Source: Desulfoluna sp. (lineage in GTDB: Bacteria; Desulfobacterota; Desulfobacteria; Desulfobacterales; Desulfolunaceae). From it: a DNA stretch of 64,000 nucleotides. Of this stretch, positions 9,042 through 33,999 are shown piece after piece; positions within the stretch are counted from its first letter, which is position 1; every line of letters starts with the position of its first letter. The DNA lies in contig NZ_JAQYWB010000006.1 in assembly GCF_030145185.1 (NCBI RefSeq), positions 1-64,000 of the forward strand. The letters run 5' to 3'. The position numbers were made by a program, and so were the translations under genes. A model generated the notes under the pieces. It saw only the letters and a list, made by a program, of their open reading frames with translations. It had not been told where the DNA came from and searched no databases.

Positions 9042-10163
9042 ATGCAGGTTCGAGGAGGAAAGGCGTTGGTCAGTGAGGTCCAGGAAAAGGGCCTGTGCGT
9101 CGACTGTGGGGGCTGTGTGGGGCTCTGCCCCTATTTTCGAAGCCACCGGGGGCGTGTGGCCATGCTCTTTGACTGTGGCCTGGACGAAGGCCGGTGCCAT
9201 GCACATTGCCCCAAGGTGGAGGTCGATTTGGATGCGGTCAGTCGACAGATCCCGGGCGTTCCCTATACCGAGGCACCTGCCGGTTATTTTCGCCGTATGG
9301 TCAAGACCCGTGCCGGGGAAAAGATGGTGGGACGGGCGCCCTATCAGAATGGCGGAACGGTCTCTTCTCTTTTGGCGCTGGCTTTTGATTCTGGATTGAT
9401 TGATGCCGCTGCTTTAACCGATCGGGAGGGGCTGATACCTCGGCCCCGGGTGGTCACCGATGTGGCCGGGGTGCTGGCCTGTGCGTCATCGAAGTACATG
9501 GCCTCCCCCACGGTGTCTGCGGTTCATGAAGCGATTGCGGCAGGTTTTCAGCGCATCGCTTTTGTGGGGACCCCCTGCCAGGCGACCTCTGTGGGGCAGA
9601 TGCGGTGCCAGATCCCTGGCCACAGCGAAAACGGCCCCATCGCCCTGACCATCGGCCTGTTCTGTACCTGGGCCCTGGACGCCAGGGCATTGACCTCCAT
9701 GGCGTCAGCAGAGATGGATCTTCAGGCCATTACAGGGATGGATGTTCCCCCGCCCCCTGCCTCGGTTTTTTCCTTTAAAACTCAAAACGGGTCCGTGGAT
9801 ATCCCCCTTGAGCGCGTGCGGGAAGCGATTCCCGAGGGCTGTCGGATCTGCCCGGACATGACCGCCGAATTTACCGATCTGTCTGTGGGTGCGCTGGAGG
9901 GAGACACCACCTGGAACAGCCTCATCTGCCGAACGGCGGCCGGTGAAGCCCTTTTCGATGCGGCTCTTAAAAAGGGGTATCTGGAAGCGGCCCCCATGGA
10001 TCCGGCCCAGGCAGCAGGGCTTCTCAAGGCCTCCGCCGTTAAGAAGGCCCGGGCCATGGCAAGGGCTCGGGAAGAGGGGCTGTTGAATAATGCAGAAGGG
10101 GCTTCGGCTCTCCGGGTGGAGCCCGCGGTTGTGGATCGGATTCTGGGAGGGACAGGCCAGTGA
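9042..10163 (+). CDS. FrhB/FdhB-family (coenzyme F420 hydrogenase/dehydrogenase beta subunit) iron-sulfur flavoprotein
   Basis: A 373-residue protein with an N-terminal ferredoxin-like motif CVDCGGCVGLCP (Cys 19, 22, 25 and 29), a second cysteine pair (CHAHCP), the FrhB N domain (GYFRRMVKTRAGE, then QNGGTVSSLLALAFDSGLIDAA) and the FrhB C domain with AFVGTPCQATSVGQM and CRICPDMTAEFTDLSVG. The family moves electrons between F420-like or flavin cofactors and iron-sulfur clusters. Sulfate reducers have many paralogues without F420 use. Directly upstream of iorA it probably exchanges electrons with ferredoxin. The specific partner is not known. Confidence 0.8.
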   Translation: MQVRGGKALVSEVQEKGLCVDCGGCVGLCPYFRSHRGRVAMLFDCGLDEGRCHAHCPKVEVDLDAVSRQIPGVPYTEAPAGYFRRMVKTRAGEKMVGRAPYQNGGTVSSLLALAFDSGLIDAAALTDREGLIPRPRVVTDVAGVLACASSKYMASPTVSAVHEAIAAGFQRIAFVGTPCQATSVGQMRCQIPGHSENGPIALTIGLFCTWALDARALTSMASAEMDLQAITGMDVPPPPASVFSFKTQNGSVDIPLERVREAIPEGCRICPDMTAEFTDLSVGALEGDTTWNSLICRTAAGEALFDAALKKGYLEAAPMDPAQAAGLLKASAVKKARAMARAREEGLLNNAEGASALRVEPAVVDRILGGTGQ

Positions 10164-10307
10164 GCGGGGAACCCACCGCGTAAGTTTGCATCTCAGGAGG
10201 TGGTCTTACCGCCGAAGTTATTCCGATTAACACCCCTCTCTGAATTGAAACCGGCGTACCCACAGCCTGTGGGTGTGGGGCGCAAGTGGTCGGCCCTCAG
10301 GCTCCGC

Positions 10308-10398
10308 GCGAATGCGCAGGCAGTACCGCTCGAAGTAACGACGTCCCTGTCGCATTCGCAAACCCGCTTTCAAGGTGGCACACCTTGCCACCGGAGGC
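10308..10398 (+). repeat. Two-hairpin intergenic repeat, copy A
   Basis: Outer arms GCGAATGCG (10308-10316) and CGCATTCGC (10351-10359) are perfect complements. They are followed by the inner hairpin CAAGGTG-GCA-CACCTTG (10371-10387) and the tail CCACCGGAGGC. A run of T residues (10402-10407) follows. The end of the element lies 30 bases before the iorA start. A small extra hairpin, ACCCACA-GCC-TGTGGGT, is at 10258-10274. Confidence 0.85.
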
Positions 10399-10428
10399 TG
10401 CTTTTTTCACGTCCATCAGGGAGGAGAG

Positions 10429-12414
10429 ATGAGCCATCTGCATGAGGAGAAGCCGGGGAATCGCCGGCTCTGTATGGGAAACGAAGCCATCGTCAGAGGA
10501 GCCCTGGAGGCCGGTGTTGCGGTGGCGGCGGGTTATCCTGGGACCCCAGCATCCGAGATCATCGAGACGCTTTCGGCCCTGGCCGGTCCGATGAACCTTT
10601 ATGTGGAATGGTCTGTCAACGAAAAGGTCGCTTTGGAGGTGGCGTCCTCCGCATCCTTTGCGGGGCTTCGAAGTCTGGCGGTTATGAAGCAGCCCGGGCT
10701 GAATGTCGCCTCTGATTACCTGCTTCATTTGTCGGGTTCCGGCACCCGCGGGGGGATGGTGCTGGTCTCAGCAGACGATCCCGGAGCGCTCTCCAGCGTG
10801 AATGAAGGGGAGACCCGCCCCTATGCCAAGCTGATGGAAGTGCCGCTGCTGGAGCCGGGGGATTTTCAGGAGGCCAAGGAGATGACCGTCTGGGCCTTTG
10901 AACTCTCTGAAACCATTCGGAATGTGGTGCTGCTGCGCACCGTGACCCGGCTCTCCCATGCCAGCGGGACCGTCGTGATGGGGGAACTGCCCGAGACGGA
11001 GAAGCAGGCACGCTTTAAGCACGATGGCTTTATCATCGACCCCATGGAAGGGGTGGTGATGAGCCCGCCGGTGGAGTGGAAACACAGCCAGCAGCAGGAA
11101 AAGCTGAAACAGGCTCAGGCTCTTTTTGAAACCTCTCCCTTTAATACCTACGAAGGCCCGGATGCCCCTGAATTGCTGATTATTACCAGCTCGGTCTGCA
11201 CCCTCTACTGCAAAGAGGCCGTGGCGCTTCTGGATGTGGGGGAAAGGGTGGGGATCCTGAAACTCGGCACCACCTGGCCCCTGCCTGAAAAGTGGGTGAA
11301 GAAACACCTGGCCACATCCGACACGGTCCTGGTGGTGGAAGAGGTGCTCCCCTTCCTCGAAGGCGAGATCAAAATCCTTGCTGCTGAGTCCGTGGCTGAA
11401 ATCGGCGCGAAAACGTTTTACGGCAAAAAAGAGGGAAGCCTTCCCACCACCGGTGAGATGAACCCGGATCGCGTGGTGGCCGCCCTCTCCACCATTCTGG
11501 GTGTTGAGTACATCGGCCAGGAGGCCGCCTATGCCCAGAGGGCCAATGAGATCTCTTTTGCGGGGGCGCCCAATCGGGAAGCCACCTTTTGCCCGGGTTG
11601 TCCCCATCGGGCCTCATTCTGGTCCATCAACACGGCTCTCTCCATGGACAACCGGAACGGGTTTGTCTGCGGGGATATCGGCTGCTACTCCATGGCGGTC
11701 CTCCCGGCAGGCTTCTCCACCCTTAAAACCCTCCACGCCATGGGCTCGGGCACCGGGGTGGCCAGTGGCTTCGGGAAACTCTCACCCTTCGGTATGGACC
11801 AATCCGTGGTCGCCGTCTGCGGGGACAGCACTTTTTTTCATTCGGTCCTGCCCCCCCTGGTCAACGCCATTCACCACCAGTCAGATCTTACCCTCATCGT
11901 CCTGGATAACAGCGGCACTGCCATGACCGGCTTCCAGTCCCATCCGGGCCTTGCTGCCAACGCCATGGGGGAGATTGCCGCCGTCATCGATATCCCGACC
12001 GTCTGCCAGGCCCTCGGCGCCAGGGTGAAGGTGGCCGATCCCTTTGAGGTCATGAAAACCCGGGAACTTCTCTTGGGACTGCTCGATGAGAAAGGCGTGA
12101 AGGTCCTGGTCCTGAAGCAGGCCTGCGCCCTGAGCCCTGAAAAGAAACACAGCAAAGCCTGGGAGATGACCATTGATGAATCCATCTGCCTGGGAGACAC
12201 CTGCGGCTGTAACCGCTTCTGTACCCGCATCTTCGCTTGCCCCGGCCTTGTCTGGGATAAAGAAAAAGGCAAAGCCCACATCGATGAGGTGGTCTGTACC
12301 GGCTGCGGCGTCTGCGCCGAGATCTGCCCAGTGGGCGCTATCGGAAAAGGGAGGGCAGAGAAAAAGGGAAAAAAGCGTGCCTCCGGCGGCGAGGTGAGCC
12401 ACCTCGAAAGCTGA
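10429..12414 (+). CDS. iorA: Indolepyruvate:ferredoxin oxidoreductase, alpha subunit IorA
   Basis: A 661-residue TPP-dependent oxidoreductase subunit that converts arylpyruvates to aryl-acetyl-CoA while reducing ferredoxin. It has the N-terminal pyrimidine-binding domain (GNEAIVRGALEAGVAVAAGYPGTP, split across residues 17-40), a middle domain and the TPP-binding domain (FCPGCPHRASFW, CGDIGCYSM, GDSTFFHS and DNSGTAMTG). The C-terminal ferredoxin domain has two cysteine sets, CLGDTCGCNRFC and CTGCGVCAEICP. The frame is open upstream to 10375 inside repeat A, but ATG 10429 has AGGGAGGAGA at 10418-10427. The last eleven residues are encoded by repeat copy B. It works with IorB, encoded 347 bases downstream. 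Confidence 0.95.
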   Translation: MSHLHEEKPGNRRLCMGNEAIVRGALEAGVAVAAGYPGTPASEIIETLSALAGPMNLYVEWSVNEKVALEVASSASFAGLRSLAVMKQPGLNVASDYLLHLSGSGTRGGMVLVSADDPGALSSVNEGETRPYAKLMEVPLLEPGDFQEAKEMTVWAFELSETIRNVVLLRTVTRLSHASGTVVMGELPETEKQARFKHDGFIIDPMEGVVMSPPVEWKHSQQQEKLKQAQALFETSPFNTYEGPDAPELLIITSSVCTLYCKEAVALLDVGERVGILKLGTTWPLPEKWVKKHLATSDTVLVVEEVLPFLEGEIKILAAESVAEIGAKTFYGKKEGSLPTTGEMNPDRVVAALSTILGVEYIGQEAAYAQRANEISFAGAPNREATFCPGCPHRASFWSINTALSMDNRNGFVCGDIGCYSMAVLPAGFSTLKTLHAMGSGTGVASGFGKLSPFGMDQSVVAVCGDSTFFHSVLPPLVNAIHHQSDLTLIVLDNSGTAMTGFQSHPGLAANAMGEIAAVIDIPTVCQALGARVKVADPFEVMKTRELLLGLLDEKGVKVLVLKQACALSPEKKHSKAWEMTIDESICLGDTCGCNRFCTRIFACPGLVWDKEKGKAHIDEVVCTGCGVCAEICPVGAIGKGRAEKKGKKRASGGEVSHLES

Positions 12415-12461
12415 TTGCCCCTGCGCTTTCTCCTTCGTTCCTCAGGAAAAAGCGCAGGGGC
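12379..12461 (-). repeat. Two-hairpin intergenic repeat, copy B (overlaps the end of iorA)
   Basis: Inverse orientation. GCCTCCGGCGG at 12379-12389, inner hairpin CGAGGTG-AGC-CACCTCG (12390-12406), then outer arms GCCCCTGCGCTTT (12417-12429) and AAAGCGCAGGGGC (12449-12461), a perfect 13-base pair unlike the other copies in sequence but equal in position. The iorA stop codon TGA is at 12412-12414, inside the element. In the element's own direction it ends near a run of T residues. Confidence 0.85.
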
Positions 12462-12761
12462 GTTCGCCGCGGGCTGTGCCCGCCACCAAAGCGGGTGACT
12501 GTCCGGGCATTGTGACAAGCTCTGTGAGGGTGTGGACTCGGTGTCATCACTTAGTCGACATTGTTCGGAGTATGAAGTGCTCTCGGTGTTCCCCGGCTCA
12601 TGCGCTTGTGACATACGTTGATTGGCCTCAAACTTAGCGCGAATGCGGACGCATTTCAGCCCGGAGTTACGACTCCCGATGCGCATTCGCAAACCAGCTT
12701 TCAAGGTGGCACACCTTGCCGCCGGAGGCAGGCTTTTACCCGGACAAGGAGACGAGAACCT
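12415..12761. other. 347-base gap between iorA and iorB
   Basis: It contains the rest of repeat B, a small hairpin GCGGG-CTGTG-CCCGC (12469-12483) and repeat C, which ends 32 bases before iorB. No gene or clear terminator is seen. iorB may be transcribed from iorA or from its own promoter, which I could not identify. Confidence 0.5.
12639..12729 (+). repeat. Two-hairpin intergenic repeat, copy C
   Basis: Outer arms GCGAATGCG (12639-12647) and CGCATTCGC (12682-12690), inner hairpin CAAGGTG-GCA-CACCTTG (12702-12718), tail CCGCCGGAGGC to 12729, then TTTT. Same orientation as copy A and almost the same distance (32 bases) to the following start codon. Confidence 0.85.
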
Positions 12762-13382
12762 ATGGAGACCATTGGACTTCCTCATGATCCATACAATTTG
12801 ATTATTACGGGTGTGGGCGGGCAGGGGAATGTGATGACTTCGCGGACCCTTGGGGGCATGCTGGCCTCCCAGGGGCTTTTTGTTACCATCGGGGAGACTT
12901 TCGGGGCGTCCCAGCGGGGCGGGTCGGTGATGAGTCATCTGCGTTTTTCCAGGCGATCGAGCTGGTCCCCGCAGATTCCTTTGGGGCAGGCGCATATGGT
13001 GGTCTCCATGGAGCCCTCAGAGGCCATTCGGGTGCTCAAGGATTTTGGGAACCGCGGGGTGAAGGTGATCACCAACACGCGGCCGTTTCTGCCGGTGGGG
13101 GTGATCTCGGGGCAGCTTAACTATCCGTCGGAGGATGAGATCCGGGACTGGGTCAATGAGATGACGGAGGCCGCCTGGTTTCTTAACGCCACGGAGGAGG
13201 CGGTCAAGATCGGGGCGCCGGTGCTGGGCAACGTCATCATGGCGGGTGCCTTGGCGGGATCAAAGGCGCTTCCCCTGCCGAGGGCCCTATTTGAAGGGGC
13301 GGTGCGTGAGCGATTTGAAGGGGAGAGACTGGCGCAGAACCTCGCAGCATTTGATGTGGGGTACGCGGCCGTTGCCGGCTGA
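12762..13382 (+). CDS. iorB: Indolepyruvate:ferredoxin oxidoreductase, beta subunit IorB
   Basis: A 206-residue gamma-domain subunit of the 2-oxoacid:ferredoxin oxidoreductase family. It opens with the typical LIITGVGGQGNVMTSRTLGG motif (split, residues 13-32) and has GETFGASQRGGSVMSHLRF (about 46-64), both hallmarks of IorB. The frame is open upstream into repeat C, but the ATG at 12762 with AAGGAGA at 12746-12752 is the likely start. It pairs with IorA to oxidise aromatic 2-oxoacids in amino-acid fermentation, or runs in reverse for synthesis. Confidence 0.94.
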   Translation: METIGLPHDPYNLIITGVGGQGNVMTSRTLGGMLASQGLFVTIGETFGASQRGGSVMSHLRFSRRSSWSPQIPLGQAHMVVSMEPSEAIRVLKDFGNRGVKVITNTRPFLPVGVISGQLNYPSEDEIRDWVNEMTEAAWFLNATEEAVKIGAPVLGNVIMAGALAGSKALPLPRALFEGAVRERFEGERLAQNLAAFDVGYAAVAG

Positions 13383-13419
13383 GCACCCCGCATCATGCTG
13401 TGAACGATAGGAGAGTGTG

Positions 13420-13488
13420 ATGAAGAAACTCCCTGTGTGGGGGAGTGGTTTGGTATATTACACGGACCGTGCCAGAAGAGGATAAAAA
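13420..13488 (+). CDS. Possible small protein of 22 residues downstream of iorB
   Basis: ATG at 13420 has AGGAG at 13409-13413 with good spacing, and the frame runs to TAA at 13486-13488. The product is basic and aromatic (MKKLPVWGSGLVYYT, then DRARRG). It lies between iorB and its terminator. There is no homology I can recall, and such a short frame may occur by chance. Confidence 0.2.
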
Positions 13489-13592
13489 AAGGATAAGCCC
13501 GAAACACAGGGGTTTTATCGTATTTTCAAGGGAGGGTGCTGGCCAGGAAATGTGGCGGGGAAAAATCAGATGGATCCAAAAGAGTCATTGTG

Positions 13593-13641
13593 CGCCGGCC
13601 TGTGGGAGAAAATACCACACAGGCCGGTGTTTTGTTTTTTT
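13593..13641 (+). terminator. Rho-independent terminator of the ior unit
   Basis: A twelve-base stem, CGCCGGCCTGTG (13593-13604) with CACAGGCCGGTG (13618-13629), one G-T pair included, is followed by TTTTGTTTTTTT (13630-13641). Confidence 0.9.
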
Positions 13642-13762
13642 ATAACTATTCAGATAGTGCCTCCGGCGGCCCTGCCGGGGGCTAAATTTTTGCATAATTT
13701 TATAAAGAAGGGTTTAACAAACAGGTTTTAAAAAATTCTTCTTGAATGAATTTTGTTTTAAA

Positions 13763-13846
13763 TGCGGATGTGATTTGACCCGAGGAACGAGGGGCAAAGC
13801 GCATCCGCAACCTGCTTTCAAGGTGGCACACCTTGCCGCCGGAGGC
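13763..13846 (+). repeat. Two-hairpin intergenic repeat, copy D
   Basis: Outer arms TGCGGATG (13763-13770) and CATCCGCA (13802-13809). Relative to copies A and C, an A-T pair has become G-C, with both partners changed. Inner hairpin CAAGGTG-GCA-CACCTTG (13819-13835), tail CCGCCGGAGGC to 13846, then a T run. Confidence 0.85.
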
Positions 13847-13906
13847 TTTTTTTGGAGCTGAACCGTTACGTTTTTTTTAACGGAATGAGGCCATCGGTGA
13901 AAACGG

Positions 13907-14890
13907 TCACAGCGCCAGGGTGCGCCCCACTTCAATGGGTTGGTAGGCATCACCAAAGACCTCGCGGAACCGATTCAGGCTCCAGTCACAGCTGTCATGG
14001 GGGGAGAGCCCCACGGCGGTGACACCGGCCTGTTGGATGGCATCCATGCCGCGCTGGACATCCTCTTCGGTAAGGCCGTTCCACGGCATGCGATCAGACC
14101 CTACAAGCTTTTGCAGATTGAGGGGGCCAAGCATCATTCGTCCCCCATGGATGGGGTAGTGCAGGCCACCGATCACAGCAAAGATGGGGTGGGGGAAAAG
14201 GGCCTGGCATCGTTCGAGGAGGCGTTCGATGGTGGGGTGCCCGCATCCGATGATCAGCGCCATGCCTTTGCCCTCAACGTGGATGGCCAGGGCCTGTTCT
14301 ACAGTATAGCCCATAATAAAAAGGGACCGCCCCATGGGGCCCAGGGACCAGACACCCGGAGCGAGCTCGCGGGGTGCCGTGACGGTGACGGCATGGCACC
14401 CCGTTGGGAGGGCACCGGTCAGGGTCTCCGGGGTGTAGACGGGAAGGTCAGAGCAGGGGGAGGCTCCGGGCGAAAAGGAGAACCGTTTCTCTTTTTCTTC
14501 GGGGATGCCTCCCACATGATCCCGATGGAGATGGCTGAGCACGAGGGCGTCCAGACTGCCCAGGTCCACGCCGAGTTTTTTTGCGTTGGCGAGCAGGGGC
14601 GAGGGATCCTCGCATTTTTCGTTGGCGCCCACGTCAAGAAGGATCCGGGTGTCGCCCGCTGTTACGAGATAGGAGACTCCCGCCTCGGTGGCGAGGGTCT
14701 CATCGGCGGCGTGGAAATCCACCAGGGGGAGGATGGAGAGGGTGGGGACAGACCCTGAGGAGTCGAGTTCCGGGGGAAGGAAGGCTGCGTCTTCCTGCTC
14801 CTGGCGATGGATGCCCCGGACCAGTTTACGTTTGAGCAGCGACAAGGGGGCGATAATGACGAGGGCGAGAATCAACATGAGGTAGGCCAT
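13907..14890 (-). CDS. Membrane-anchored metallo-beta-lactamase-fold hydrolase
   Basis: A 327-residue protein with one N-terminal transmembrane helix (residues 2-19, MLILALVIIAPLSLL) followed by basic residues. A metallo-beta-lactamase domain carries the metal motif SHLHRDHVGG (His120, His122, Asp124, His125), then later CGH and a C-terminal SPHDSCDW segment. It resembles the subgroup of archaeal and bacterial proteins related to methanopterin-pathway synthase-like hydrolases (GCGH and GGLHYP motifs). The substrate is unknown. A repeat copy in the same orientation lies 42 bases upstream of its start. Confidence 0.75.
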   Translation of the reverse strand: MAYLMLILALVIIAPLSLLKRKLVRGIHRQEQEDAAFLPPELDSSGSVPTLSILPLVDFHAADETLATEAGVSYLVTAGDTRILLDVGANEKCEDPSPLLANAKKLGVDLGSLDALVLSHLHRDHVGGIPEEKEKRFSFSPGASPCSDLPVYTPETLTGALPTGCHAVTVTAPRELAPGVWSLGPMGRSLFIMGYTVEQALAIHVEGKGMALIIGCGHPTIERLLERCQALFPHPIFAVIGGLHYPIHGGRMMLGPLNLQKLVGSDRMPWNGLTEEDVQRGMDAIQQAGVTAVGLSPHDSCDWSLNRFREVFGDAYQPIEVGRTLAL

Positions 14891-14932
14891 GGGTTTCTCC
14901 GGCTAAGGGTGGCAGTATCTGTAACAAAAAGT

Positions 14933-15022
14933 GCCTCCGGCGGCGAGGTGAGCCACCTCGAAAGCTCATTTGCGAATGCGTATCGGTTGTCGTTAATCTC
15001 AGCACCTCGCGTCCGCATTCGC
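14933..15022 (-). repeat. Two-hairpin intergenic repeat, copy E
   Basis: Inverse orientation. GCCTCCGGCGG at 14933-14943, inner hairpin CGAGGTG-AGC-CACCTCG (14944-14960), outer arms GCGAATGCG (14972-14980) and CGCATTCGC (15014-15022). Read on the minus strand, it ends with a T run 42 bases before the start of the minus-strand gene at 14890. Confidence 0.85.
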
Positions 15023-15112
15023 GTGAAGGGTGAGGGGCTGCAACGTTCGTCACAAGTGCACGAATGGTCGGTGCTTCCTTGCCAACTCACGGGTTGACAT
15101 TAACCGGAATAA

Positions 15113-15194
15113 CTCCGGCGGCAAGGTGTGCCACCTTGAAAGCTGGTTGCGAATGCGCTTTGCCCCGCGCTTGTCGCGCCGGAGGCATGTTCGC
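15113..15194 (-). repeat. Two-hairpin intergenic repeat, copy F (degenerate outer stem)
   Basis: Inverse orientation. CTCCGGCGG, inner hairpin CAAGGTG-TGC-CACCTTG (15122-15138), outer arm GCGAATGCG (15149-15157) and a poor partner CATGTTCGC (15186-15194). It lacks the T run of the other copies. Confidence 0.7.
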
Positions 15195-15201
15195 TTTTTT
15201 C

Positions 15202-16041
15202 TTAGATCTTCACTACCTGATCCAGCTCGATTCCTTTGCGGCCCTCTTTGACGGTGGCCGCGGCGACGGTGGGGTCGTGTTCGAAAAAGAGCGTCCAGTT
15301 CTTGGCCACGGCTTGCTTGAGGACCCCTTCTTTTTCGGACATAATGAGCAGGGGCTGGTTGTCGTAGCCCATGTGCCAGGGGATGGGTATATGGGCTGAG
15401 GTGGGGATCAAATCGCCGCAAAAAAGAAGGGACTCGGTCTCTCCCGTGATAAGGGGGAGCTGCTGGCCGCAGGTGTGGCCGTCGGAGAAAAGCAGTTCAA
15501 TGCCATCAATGGGGAGGTTGTTGCCGTCCAGGACCCTCAACTGTCCGTTTGTTTCCATGGGGGTCCAGTTTTCGGCAAAGAAGCTCGCCCGGTCCCGCAG
15601 GGTGGGATATTTGGCCCAGTTAAGCTGACGTTTCTGAATGTAGTAGGTGGCGTTGGGAAAGGTGGGGACGGCGTTTCCTTCTTTGAGAAAGGTGGTGCCC
15701 CCTGCGTGATCGAAGTGGAGATGGGTGAGGATGACGTCGGTGATCTCGGCGGTGGAGAGACCGTAATCGCGCAGCGCCTCATCGGGACTGCGGGTGGCGG
15801 TGACGCCGTAGATGGCCAGCTCTTTTTCGCTGAATTTCGTGCCGCAACCGGTGTCGATCAGGATATTGCGTCCGTGCCCGCAAAGCAGCAGGGAGCGTGA
15901 CTTTAAAGGGATGCGATTCTTGGCATCCGACGGGATCTTACGGTCCCAGAGCGGCTTGGGAACCACTCCAAACATGGCCCCTCCGTCCAGAAGAAAATCA
16001 CACATCTCCACCGCATGGCATTTGTATCCACCCACGTCCAT
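15202..16041 (-). CDS. Soluble metallo-beta-lactamase-fold hydrolase
   Basis: A 279-residue MBL-fold protein without a signal peptide. The motif THLHFDHAGG (His107, His109, Asp111, His112) is followed by DGHTCGQQ (third metal His), CGDLIP and the late FFEHD. The layout is that of the lactonase/glyoxalase II-like subgroup, including N-acyl-homoserine lactonase-like proteins (NILIDTGCG before the metal motif). The substrate is unknown. It is separated from the membrane-anchored MBL gene by two repeat copies. Confidence 0.8.
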   Translation of the reverse strand: MDVGGYKCHAVEMCDFLLDGGAMFGVVPKPLWDRKIPSDAKNRIPLKSRSLLLCGHGRNILIDTGCGTKFSEKELAIYGVTATRSPDEALRDYGLSTAEITDVILTHLHFDHAGGTTFLKEGNAVPTFPNATYYIQKRQLNWAKYPTLRDRASFFAENWTPMETNGQLRVLDGNNLPIDGIELLFSDGHTCGQQLPLITGETESLLFCGDLIPTSAHIPIPWHMGYDNQPLLIMSEKEGVLKQAVAKNWTLFFEHDPTVAAATVKEGRKGIELDQVVKI

Positions 16042-16214
16042 TGTTGCCTCTCCCTCGTTGAAAGATGAACCCCAACATCCCGGCCCAAGCCTGCCACACT
16101 TTTTCTCAAGAACGGTATCCTACTTGATTTAACCTGTAAATACCTGAATATTCGAGGTGGACAATGTTACCGGAAGGGGCGGGAGAGAACGCGAGGTCTG
16201 TCTCCGGGATGTTT

Positions 16215-29693: not shown

Positions 29694-29768
29694 TGGTACC
29701 CCCAGCAAGAATTGAACTTGCGCACATGGATTAGGAATCCAATGCTCTATCCACTGAGCTATGGGGGC
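29694..29768 (-). tRNA. tRNA-Arg (anticodon CCT)
   Basis: Cloverleaf on the minus strand: acceptor GCCCCCA with TGGGGGT, D arm AGCTCAGTGGATAGAGC, anticodon loop TTCCTAA (CCT, reads AGG), T loop TTCAATT and encoded CCA. There is a T-T mismatch at the top of the anticodon stem. The 5' end is one base after the stop codon of the lytic transglycosylase gene. Confidence 0.95.
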
Positions 29769-31913: not shown

Positions 31914-31989
31914 GCCGGCATAGCTCAGTTGGCAGAGCTTCTCACTTGTAATGAGATGGTCCTCCGTTCGATTCGGGGTGCCGGCTCCA
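31914..31989 (+). tRNA. tRNA-Thr (anticodon TGT)
   Basis: Complete cloverleaf with acceptor GCCGGCA/TGCCGGC, anticodon loop CTTGTAA (TGT) and encoded CCA. It is first in a Thr-Tyr-Gly-Thr tRNA set upstream of tuf, the same order as E. coli thrU-tyrU-glyT-thrT-tufB. Confidence 0.96.
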
Positions 31990-32009
31990 AAAAGAACATG
32001 TTCAAAAAT

Positions 32010-32094
32010 GGTGGGGTTCCCGAGTGGTCAAAGGGATCAGACTGTAAATCTGACGGCTCAGCCTTCGGAGGTTCAAATCCTCCCCCCACCACCA
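32010..32094 (+). tRNA. tRNA-Tyr (anticodon GTA)
   Basis: An 85-base class II tRNA with a long variable arm, acceptor GGTGGGG/CCCCACC, anticodon loop ACTGTAAAT (GTA) and encoded CCA. Second of the four clustered tRNAs. Confidence 0.97.
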
Positions 32095-32190
32095 TCCCGG
32101 AATAGCAAGCTGGGTGTAGGAGGCCAAATGGCCATGACTACGCGGCTGCCTACAATTAACTTGCTTCCGGTGCACTGCGCCGGTAGGTCG

Positions 32191-32266
<76 letters not shown>

Positions 32267-32300
32267 TTTGGCATTTGCCCGACCGCACATCAGCGATTAA

Positions 32301-32377
<77 letters not shown>

Positions 32378-32493
32378 CGCTGATTTGTTGTTGCGCCTTC
32401 TTATATTACGGCAGGTGTAAGTAAGCAAGTCACACCATATTATATACAGACTACAATTGGGTAAAGCACCAAACGTACAGGGAGGTAGTTGAC

Positions 32494-33690
<1,197 letters not shown>

Positions 33691-33706
33691 ATCGAGGAGC
33701 CGATAA

Positions 33707-33856
33707 GTGCGAACTTTAGTAACTCTCGCCTGCACTGAGTGCAAAAGGCGAAACTATACAACGACGAAAAACAAGCGTACGACGCCTGACAAACTTGAAT
33801 TCAAGAAATACTGTCCCTTCTGCAAGAAGCATCTTGTCCACAAGGAGACGAAGTAA
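33707..33856 (+). CDS. rpmG: Ribosomal protein bL33
   Basis: A 49-residue protein with a GTG start: [20 protein letters not shown], then a basic middle and [15 protein letters not shown]. It is the zinc-binding form with two CxxC pairs (CTEC, CPFC). It sits 16 bases after tuf and upstream of tRNA-Trp, the common tuf-rpmG-trnW-secE order. Confidence 0.96.
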
Positions 33857-33922
33857 TCAGGTCCAGAGCCGGGGTGGGCTTTAATCCACCCAGCCCGGTC
33901 GCTTGAAAAAGGTTTAGCGTGA

Positions 33923-33999
33923 AGGTCAGTAGCTCCAATTGGTAGAGCGTCGGTCTCCAAAACCGAATGTTGGGGGTTCGACTCCCTCCTGACCTGCCA
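33923..33999 (+). tRNA. tRNA-Trp (anticodon CCA)
   Basis: Acceptor AGGTCAG/CTGACCT, anticodon loop CTCCAAA (CCA) and encoded CCA end. It is located between rpmG and secE, as in many bacteria. Confidence 0.97.

Follow-up and report, generated by a model that had tools for sequence, protein, structure and literature searches.

A probable new family of mobile, non-autonomous, structure-conserved two-hairpin repeats multiplied in Desulfoluna

SPRITE, BOX and RUP of Streptococcus pneumoniae are small, structured intergenic repeats lying near gene 3' ends. The Desulfoluna repeat described here resembles them in its enrichment in convergent gaps, in its terminator-like form, shared by one of the three, and in the lack of a clear transposase, reported for SPRITE in the accessible part of that account (PMC3049150). 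It differs from them in its host, which belongs to another phylum, and in its unit of two hairpins with a changing but paired stem and a constant tag, present in 241–817 copies per genome in five genomes. We know of no sequence relation between it and these repeats. REP elements of the GTAG/CGTC type are likewise palindromes whose one end bears a short, invariant, unpaired tag, show subfamilies with alternative complementary stem residues and lie mostly downstream of genes; the CGTC class is presented without a dedicated transposase in the available sections of the source (PMC3733652). The Desulfoluna tag is, in contrast, the 12-mer GCCGCCGGAGGC, carried by a two-hairpin unit of about 90 nt, compared to the 20–40 nt given there for a REP, and the units are not mainly dimers. 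On the best reading, REP and SPRITE/BOX elements are the closest kinds. Hundreds of palindromic, non-autonomous copies are also typical of the REPIN/RAYT system, as far as the excerpts of two accounts go (PMC3116915, PMC2817692); unlike in that system, no RAYT bracketed by Desulfoluna copies was seen in 42 loci, and doublets are a minority. A subset of the type of copy D (below) has terminal inverted repeats (TIRs) and an 8-bp target duplication, like the Correia/ERIC MITEs in the accessible part of PMC10969869, whereas most Desulfoluna copies have neither. Judged by titles and abstract starts, none of the papers listed from an open-licence library describes the repeat, and none retrieved with its 12-mer box deals with bacterial repeats.

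In the window (the whole 64-kb stretch that was analysed), a covariance model derived from 53 copies (B among them) recovered all six copies A–F of the initial annotation, with E-values from 5.9e-21 to 1.1e-8 (Table 1). The next-best row, with E 0.24, was the sole other one up to E 1. Both orientations occur, as had been stated: A, C and D on the plus strand, B, E and F on the minus strand. Copy A separates the FrhB/FdhB-like gene from iorA; in four relatives, the equivalent gap is repeat-free and about 20–60 nt long, measured between tblastn ends. Copy B supplies the last codons of iorA (ASGGEVSHLES) and its stop, which explains an oddity in the annotation of this gene: its end derives from a repeat. 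Apparently orthologous copies of B are present in D. limicola and D. spongiiphila, the latter with its 3' hairpin replaced. The impression that every gap is filled holds for the four gaps from the gene at 9042–10163 to that at 15202–16041, each with a copy, but not for the next gap (16042–16214), which has none. A tie of the family to this redox/metallo-beta-lactamase island is not supported by the relatives, whose equivalent island has other repeats or none.

Table 1. Positions of the six repeat copies and of neighbouring features in the window.
Feature	Position	Strand	Remarks
FrhB/FdhB-like gene	9042..10163	+	Pfam PF04432, PF04422
Copy A	10308..10398	+	5' hairpin 10308-10359; 3' hairpin and tag 10366-10398; then T-run
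iorA-like gene	10429..12414	+	POR_N, TPP_enzyme_C, Fer4; name inferred from domains
Copy B	12379..12465	-	Covariance model; overlaps iorA 3' end
Copy C	12639..12729	+	Upstream of iorB; 5' hairpin 12639-12690; 3' hairpin and tag 12697-12729
iorB-like gene	12762..13382	+	POR domain; name inferred from domain
Presumed native iorB terminator stem-loop	13595..13627	+	MITE target; read from sequence
Left target-site duplication GTTTTTTT	13634..13641	+	In T-tract of presumed iorB terminator
MITE carrying copy D	13642..13869	+	228 bp; TIRs of GTAACTATTCAGC type, left ATAACTATTCAG, right CTGAACCGTTAC
Copy D	13760..13846	+	Right part of 228-bp MITE; covariance model
Right target-site duplication GTTTTTTT	13870..13877	+	8 bp
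MBL1	13907..14890	-	Metallo-beta-lactamase-fold gene (Pfam)
Copy E	14933..15020	-	Upstream of MBL1; covariance model
Copy F	15111..15198	-	Just downstream of MBL2 by model ends; last bases meet gene end at 15202
MBL2	15202..16041	-	Metallo-beta-lactamase-fold gene (Pfam)

The full unit of about 90 nt is composed of a 5' hairpin (~45–52 nt) and an adjacent 3' hairpin (33 nt, tag included) that ends in the tag and is usually followed by a T-run. The outer stem of about 90 bases around an inner hairpin, as first drawn, is thus wrong: the two hairpins stand side by side. The inner stem variants were read correctly, with CAAGGTG/CACCTTG in A, C, D and F and CGAGGTG/CACCTCG in B and E. As for the other stem, copies A and C share GCGAATGCG/CGCATTCGC, and D has GCGGATGTG/CGCATCCGC, with one G-T pair. 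Copy B does have a stem different from that of A and C, but it measures 18 bp with one G-T pair and is not a perfect stem of 13 bases. In the main class, which comprises 163 of 312 copies, the 5' hairpin has the commonest loop, GAGGNACGA; such a loop on a stem of 12 or more pairs was always accompanied by the tag (32/32). About a fifth of the copies (60/270; stem score ≤6) have no clear 5' hairpin, and several other 3' and 5' modules were found beside the same core.

The family is not restricted to the region in which it was noticed. The host genome contains 358 matches to the 3' hairpin and tag with up to two mismatches (reversed control, 0), and its total is roughly 350–670 copies; the figure of 358 is a whole-genome count with a pattern stricter than the one behind the density estimate. 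Copy density was sampled in 60 host-genome stretches plus the window (1,221,900 bases), possibly with an upward bias, the stretches lying nearly all on contigs from the pattern hit list (exception, C115). The density counts leave out loci L001–L012, picked for transposase genes, and loci L305 and L307–L313 enter no copy count. By pattern, five of six Desulfoluna genomes carry the element: besides the 358 copies of the host (G000), the five others have 817, 672, 248, 241 and 0. The pattern was absent from 52 other relatives, and the reversed control from all genomes. The covariance model gave six matches in G003, at least 150 in each of five other genomes and none in G006 or G007. In a separate scan, the named hosts among the matches listed are D. 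limicola, D. spongiiphila, D. butyratoxydans and the MAG GLD-1. An apparent restriction of the limicola matches to the plus strand is probably a matter of listing order; exact minus-strand matches exist in the same stretches.

Some copies are carried by a MITE with TIRs and an 8-bp target-site duplication, as seen for copy D. An exact 8-bp duplication flanks 18 of 66 TIR pairs, and a 7-bp one flanks another, versus 2/1305 at 7 bp in the swap control; nine of these 19 pairs contain a core. The insertion sites of the MITE are mostly A/T-rich, for example, a terminator T-tract. In principle, every copy could be what is left of an end of a GTAACTATTCAGC MITE that a DDE transposase once moved and that later lost its TIRs: the left end of the MITE carries the same GCCTCCGGCGGC box, and insertion into T-rich targets could account for the T-run behind the core. 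This origin is nevertheless unlikely. Only 11 of 100 cores have a TIR within 40 nt (≤1 mismatch) and 89 lack one; at a loose setting (≤77 nt, ≤3 mismatches, both strands), a TIR accompanies 56 of 312 copies. The remaining 256 show no target duplication above the swap control, so the evidence for movement is indirect for most copies. Moreover, other 3' and 5' modules adjoin the same core, and no parent insertion sequence appeared in the fetched loci, which cover part of each genome: TIR pairs 0.9–3.5 kb apart lacked an exact 8-bp duplication. IS66 was considered as the source of the TIR transposase and rejected, three IS66 transposase loci being devoid of the TIR.

The compensatory change proposed in the initial annotation is supported by 53 diverse main-class copies, compared with shuffled and slid controls, and by three comparisons of apparent orthologs. 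In the 5' hairpin of the 53 copies, double changes that keep the pairing occur in 15 of 17 pairs; 92.4% of the cells are paired versus 79.5% after shuffling, with 169 double-change cells versus 51.7, a number reached by none of 500 shuffles. Only copies with GAGGNACGA at one set position (135/312 copies) were admitted to this set and to a 75-copy set, so the loop conservation in the 53-copy test results partly from the selection. Over all classes (270 copies), the two arms of a copy match each other better than exchanged arms do (mean stem score, 10.4 vs. 6.8). In the 75 copies, stem G-T and A-C combinations stand at 77:18, versus 115:71 after shuffling, a ratio reached by none of 2000 shuffles; this asymmetry identifies the strand that folds. 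With the folded strand defined, the copies might also be the structured RNA of the initial annotation. The ortholog comparisons (L035/L236 and copy B versus two species), chosen after inspection, contain 10 changed pairs: eight changed on both sides and still pairing, one on one side and still pairing, and one unpaired. They come from an alignment of 10 same-strand pairs, most of which align poorly outside the core. A counter-example outside this tally is the host copy L013:12436, which has lost its 5' arm relative to its apparent ortholog. With stems that vary in their letters but remain paired, it is the fold rather than the sequence that counts most.

Quasi-palindrome correction by template switching is an established process, and pairing could be kept by such mutation between the hairpin arms instead of by selection. 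The stems are often perfect and their differences clustered, as this would predict. Copying of arms should, however, restore perfect pairs and be strand-neutral, whereas G-T is tolerated far above A-C on one strand, and two positions stay unpaired in most copies (-41/-15, 32% paired) or in many (-36/-20, 54% paired). Maintenance by mutation instead of selection is, for these reasons, rather improbable, although template switching could contribute to the pairing of the stems.

The copies are intergenic: none of 172 cores lies more than 40 nt inside a called gene. Convergent gaps are preferred (26/95 copies vs. 80/558 gaps) and divergent gaps avoided (5/95 vs. 107/558), with gene positions taken from a simple custom gene caller (coding fraction 0.81). 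A T-run of at least four follows 71% of 275 cores, versus 12.5% further downstream, and the core folds more stably on the sense strand, with -16.6 versus -11.6 kcal/mol for the A-T variant and -15.4 versus -13.4 kcal/mol for the G-C variant. A duplex followed by a T-rich tract and enriched at convergent ends is also what defines SPRITE-like elements, a likeness of kind and not of membership. The 3' part can also fold like a terminator in one orientation, and a copy may incidentally end transcription. In Rfam, the only matches of the window at the gathering score are six tRNAs, and the best sub-threshold match in 10200–15300 reaches 24.8 bits of the 60 needed.

The T-run and the terminator-like fold, together with the wobble asymmetry that points to one strand and with copy B, which three species seem to have retained while compensatory changes arose in it, would suit a host-functional RNA, each copy being transcribed and serving gene regulation as a terminator, an attenuator or an mRNA-stability hairpin. 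Such a role is quite unlikely. Between co-directional genes, there is no orientation bias (sense:antisense, 35:29 and 21:19), and the terminator fold has little compensatory evidence (two double-change cells). In other species, the syntenic site has no core for 15 of 28 host copies and 30 of 46 limicola copies, any core in the interval, in either orientation, being taken as present. Furthermore, iorB seems to have possessed a terminator of its own in this gap when copy D arrived, as suggested by similar stem-loops without a MITE in D. spongiiphila and D. butyratoxydans (read by eye).

Movement by a RAYT (Y1) transposase, as in a classical REP/REPIN, has in its favor the high copy number, the palindromes, the gene-end placement and the Y1 (PF01797) matches, 76 altogether, that each of the eight genomes searched contributes to. 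Close neighbors (<500 nt) are also in excess in the host: 21 pairs among 141 copies versus 7.9 expected, 10 of them inverted. In limicola, six pairs were found among 83 copies (8.2 expected), five of them inverted; inverted doublets are, hence, not the predominant arrangement, close pairs being in excess in the host genome only and a minority of the copies. The loci of 42 of the 76 Y1 matches were examined: a core lies within about 1.5 kb of six of them by the strict pattern, and of a seventh (L011) with a 4-nt loop, compared to 7–18 expected by rough arithmetic from copy densities. None of the 42 has two cores around the gene, and the suggested RAYT with matching ends finds no counterpart in inverted copies bracketing a gene. 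The consensus of 275 cores ends in neither a GTAG nor a CGTC tag, and a replication-strand bias as in IS200/IS605 is absent (76/144; GC skew proxy, loci partly chosen by pattern). On this evidence, RAYT-driven movement is very unlikely. A RAYT flanked by the GTAACTATTCAGC repeat was also considered: the 42 loci contain only scattered matches, with an exact 13-mer at two (L002 and L008) and no TIR pair around the gene.

The Desulfoluna repeats are probably a new family of non-autonomous, mobile and structure-conserved interspersed repeats multiplied within this genus of sulfate reducers. In general terms, the REP/MITE-like mobile element of the initial annotation stands: copies are genus-wide and intergenic, the species differ in their presence, and copy D sits in a MITE with TIRs and target duplication. 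At ~80% interspecies identity, the genomes are too diverged for exact junctions of copies without TIRs. The agent that copies or retains the repeat would read the loop, the tag and the hairpin shape, and not the stem sequence. Units without TIRs may be moved by an enzyme acting on a folded strand, or they may be remnants and propagate through recombination from repeat to repeat. Their frequent placement at gene ends would reflect T-tract targeting and purging from genes and divergent promoters, and probably not a regulatory function of every single copy. More tentatively, and with considerable doubt, hairpins tagged with GCCTCCGGCGGC might represent a third superfamily of tagged palindromes beside GTAG and CGTC, spread over more than one Desulfobacterota family. 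Their stems would drift while paired, and a putative enzyme would read the tag and the shape of the hairpin on a single strand. Desulfoluna would harbor an extreme form with a second hairpin and the loop GAGGNACGA, which might be closed off by a GNA triloop on tandem sheared G-A pairs.

Repeats of this kind should not be taken for regulatory RNAs of the genes that they flank by chance. Interspersed repeats are usually defined by a conserved sequence; here, the stem drifts, and pairing, loop and tag are kept. Each genome, therefore, offers hundreds of natural variants that test how a mobilizing enzyme or the RNA machinery recognizes a hairpin.

The two-hairpin repeat is spread genus-wide in Desulfoluna. 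All six copies (A-F) noted in the redox/MBL island of the window are present, and a covariance model of 53 copies (window copy B included) recovers the same six from the 64-kb window, with no other match below E 0.24. The initial annotation had seen the family in this region only; in the host genome, to which the window belongs, the 3' hairpin plus tag matches 358 times with up to 2 mismatches (reversed control, 0). With 4-nt loops allowed, 141 copies were counted in 1.22 Mb of chosen host stretches, which scales to about 670, an estimate that may be biased upward. By pattern, 241-817 copies occur in five of six congeneric genomes; the sixth, G003, yields 0 by pattern and 6 by covariance model. 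The pattern search covered 58 genomes, and the remaining 52 contain no copies by it; nor do two genomes of the same family (G006 and G007) in a covariance-model search. Hosts among the matches listed are Desulfoluna limicola, D. spongiiphila, D. butyratoxydans and the MAG GLD-1, and the window's genome is classed in the same genus.

Each unit consists of two hairpins side by side, instead of the outer stem enclosing an inner hairpin that was first described. On the strand ending in a T-run, a 5' hairpin (~45-52 nt) is followed by a short linker (commonly AACCN) and a 33-nt core, GCTTTC[A/G]AGGTGNNNCACCT[T/C]GCCGCCGGAGGC, made up of the 3' hairpin and the constant tag. A run of at least four T lies within 15 nt after 71% of 275 cores, vs. 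12.5% of stretches further down. Around the tag there are variants in which the loop is 4 nt long or contains an additional small hairpin, or in which a different 3' hairpin precedes the same tag; the alternative hairpin GGGGTCCAGGGG...CCCCTGG was found 16 times in the sample. About a fifth of the copies (60 of 270, with a stem score of 6 or less) show no clear 5' hairpin. At three loci, a small hairpin (GGTGGCGAAGCCACT...) is inserted in the loop of the hairpin next to the tag, either as a nested insertion or as a variant. At the start of host contig C11, the core alone forms a tandem array with a 38-nt period right at the end of the contig; this may be an amplification at which the assembly broke. 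At 44 of 312 cores, a further module common to them, TTTAACCATAGAAGGC (4 mismatches allowed), is present 10-63 nt downstream and often trails the T-run, as in loci L036, L038 and L070; a control stretch gives 2 of 312. The repeats therefore form mosaics.

The repeat is strongly structured in its main class. Over 270 copies of all classes, the arms within one copy fit better than exchanged arms do (mean score 10.4 vs. 6.8). For the closer pairing test, 53 mutually different copies were drawn from the 135 (of 312) in which the loop GAGGNACGA occupies a fixed position; counting every copy that has it anywhere nearby, the number is 163. Loop uniformity here partly reflects how the set was selected, only the fifth base being left free; that base is A in 117 of the 135. 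Compensatory stem change, as initially proposed, is borne out by these 53 copies and by comparisons of apparent orthologues. Standard pairs fill 92.4% of the cells in 24 proposed pairs (79.5% when shuffled), cells changed on both sides number 169 (51.7 when shuffled), and none of 500 shuffles matched any of five pairing measures. When the partners are shifted by 1-3 columns, pairing falls to 35-47%. Double changes affect 15 of the 17 pairs of the 5' hairpin; in the 3' hairpin, a single pair covaries (A-T in 26 and G-C in 26 of the 53), and the others hardly vary. The terminator-like fold of the core is 98.4% paired, but it is plausible rather than proven, because just 2 cells carry a double change.

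Stem imperfections in 75 copies favor G-T over A-C (77:18; 115:71 when shuffled), a ratio reached in none of 2000 shuffles. The excess persists without pairs -43, -37 and -36 (34:15 vs. 73.5:55.9). This asymmetry marks the folding strand but does not distinguish RNA from single-stranded DNA. Copies that appear to be orthologous were compared in three cases, chosen after inspection (window copy B with limicola, copy B with spongiiphila, and host locus L035 with limicola locus L236). Among the 10 pairs that changed, 9 still pair (8 altered on both sides, 1 on one side) and 1 has lost its pairing. In another apparently orthologous copy (L013:12436), the 5' arm is lost in the host. Pairing is thus usually kept as the stem changes by descent, and single copies decay.

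Most of the 297 genomes searched for the 12-mer tag GCCTCCGGCGGC are near the level of the reversed control. The tag is enriched over that control in a few other genomes of the phylum: three of one family, f94 (G097, 97:2; G329, 103:12; G267, 64:11), and G093 (76:5). With both strands read, 16 of 20 distinct f94 sites (5/6 in G267, 5/7 in G329, 6/7 in G097) and 3 of 8 sites in G093 have a stem of at least 6 starting no more than 2 nt from the tag; random places give 9%. The f94 stems are not alike, and GAATCCC or GACCCC comes after 9 of the 16. Across loci L263-L292 of these four genomes, from other Desulfobacterota families, the tag precedes hairpins of varied sequence, often with GAATCCC/GACCCC. 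This small sample suggests that tagged hairpins with drifting stems may exist beyond Desulfoluna.

The repeat is mobile in evolutionary time. Syntenic counterparts are missing for 15 of the 28 copies compared from the host and for 30 of the 46 from limicola. According to a home-made gene caller, none of 172 cores extends into a called gene by more than 40 nt, and a few overlap gene ends. Convergent gaps are over-represented (host, 26/95 cores vs. 80/558 gaps; limicola, 22/71 vs. 33/199) and divergent gaps under-represented (5/95 vs. 107/558; more weakly in limicola, 9/71 vs. 35/199). Cores whose tag end points toward a stop codon lie a median of 21 or 31.5 nt from it. No orientation preference was found between co-directional genes (35:29 in the host, 21:19 in limicola), nor a replication-strand bias in limicola (76/144). 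Neighbors closer than 500 nt form 21 pairs in the host vs. 7.9 expected, and 6 vs. 8.2 in limicola.

The island itself argues against a system that is local or linked to redox genes. Gene order (FrhB-like gene, iorA, iorB, MBL1, MBL2 and acyltransferase-like gene, the last named by eye) is conserved in G001, G002, G003 and G005. The repeats differ between relatives. The copy-A gap is about 20-60 nt and repeat-free in these four, and the G003 island contains no copy at all. The 13 kb fetched from GLD-1 yielded just MBL1, MBL2 and the last gene. The end of iorA falls within copy B; by eye, the gene ends in other residues in relatives.

The proposal of a REP/MITE-like element holds in that the repeat behaves like a REP, SPRITE or MITE; the MITE definition applies only to a subset including copy D. 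Among the loci read, 18 of 66 pairs of terminal inverted repeats (TIRs, GTAACTATTCAGC type) show an exact duplication of 8 bp and a further pair one of 7 bp, mostly A/T-rich (swapped-pair control, 2/1305 at 7 bp). A core lies inside 9 of these 19 pairs. Only 11 of 100 cores have a TIR within 40 nt (56 of 312 with a looser match), and copies lacking TIRs show no target-duplication signal. Around the copy D element, the duplicated bases are the T-tract belonging to a stem-loop downstream of iorB; by eye, a similar stem-loop without the MITE is present in spongiiphila and butyratoxydans. A second MITE family (~365 bp) has the same ends and exact 8-bp duplications, with no core inside.

Coordinates of individual features in the window and in fetched loci
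Feature	Location	Position	Details
MITE bearing copy D	window	13642-13869	228 bp; GTAACTATTCAGC-type ends; 8-bp duplication GTTTTTTT
iorA C-terminus from copy B	window	12379-12414	residues ASGGEVSHLES and stop codon encoded by repeat
Second MITE family	L016	3612-3978	
Second MITE family	L049	6803-7167	
Second MITE family	L062	18731-19094	
Small hairpin in loop	L026	near 14065	
Small hairpin in loop	L019	near 4488	
Small hairpin in loop	L040	near 3782	
Tandem core array	L013	1-140	
tRNA genes (Rfam)	window	31914-33996	five; plus strand
tRNA gene (Rfam)	window	29697-29768	minus strand

As to what moves the repeat, IS66 was rejected as the TIR transposase, as its genes do not carry the TIR. In a RAYT-linked REP, the RAYT gene would be flanked by inverted copies of the element; the loci examined do not support this. 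RAYT-like (Y1) matches occur in 8 of 8 genomes searched, but among 42 Y1 loci examined only 6 have a strict-pattern core and one more a core with a 4-nt loop, none of the genes lies between two cores, and a RAYT with matching ends, as envisaged initially, did not emerge. The fetched part of the genomes yielded no autonomous element bearing the TIR. The favored reading is a non-autonomous element, which would be read by its loop, tag and shape; in sense copies, an incidental role as terminator is possible.
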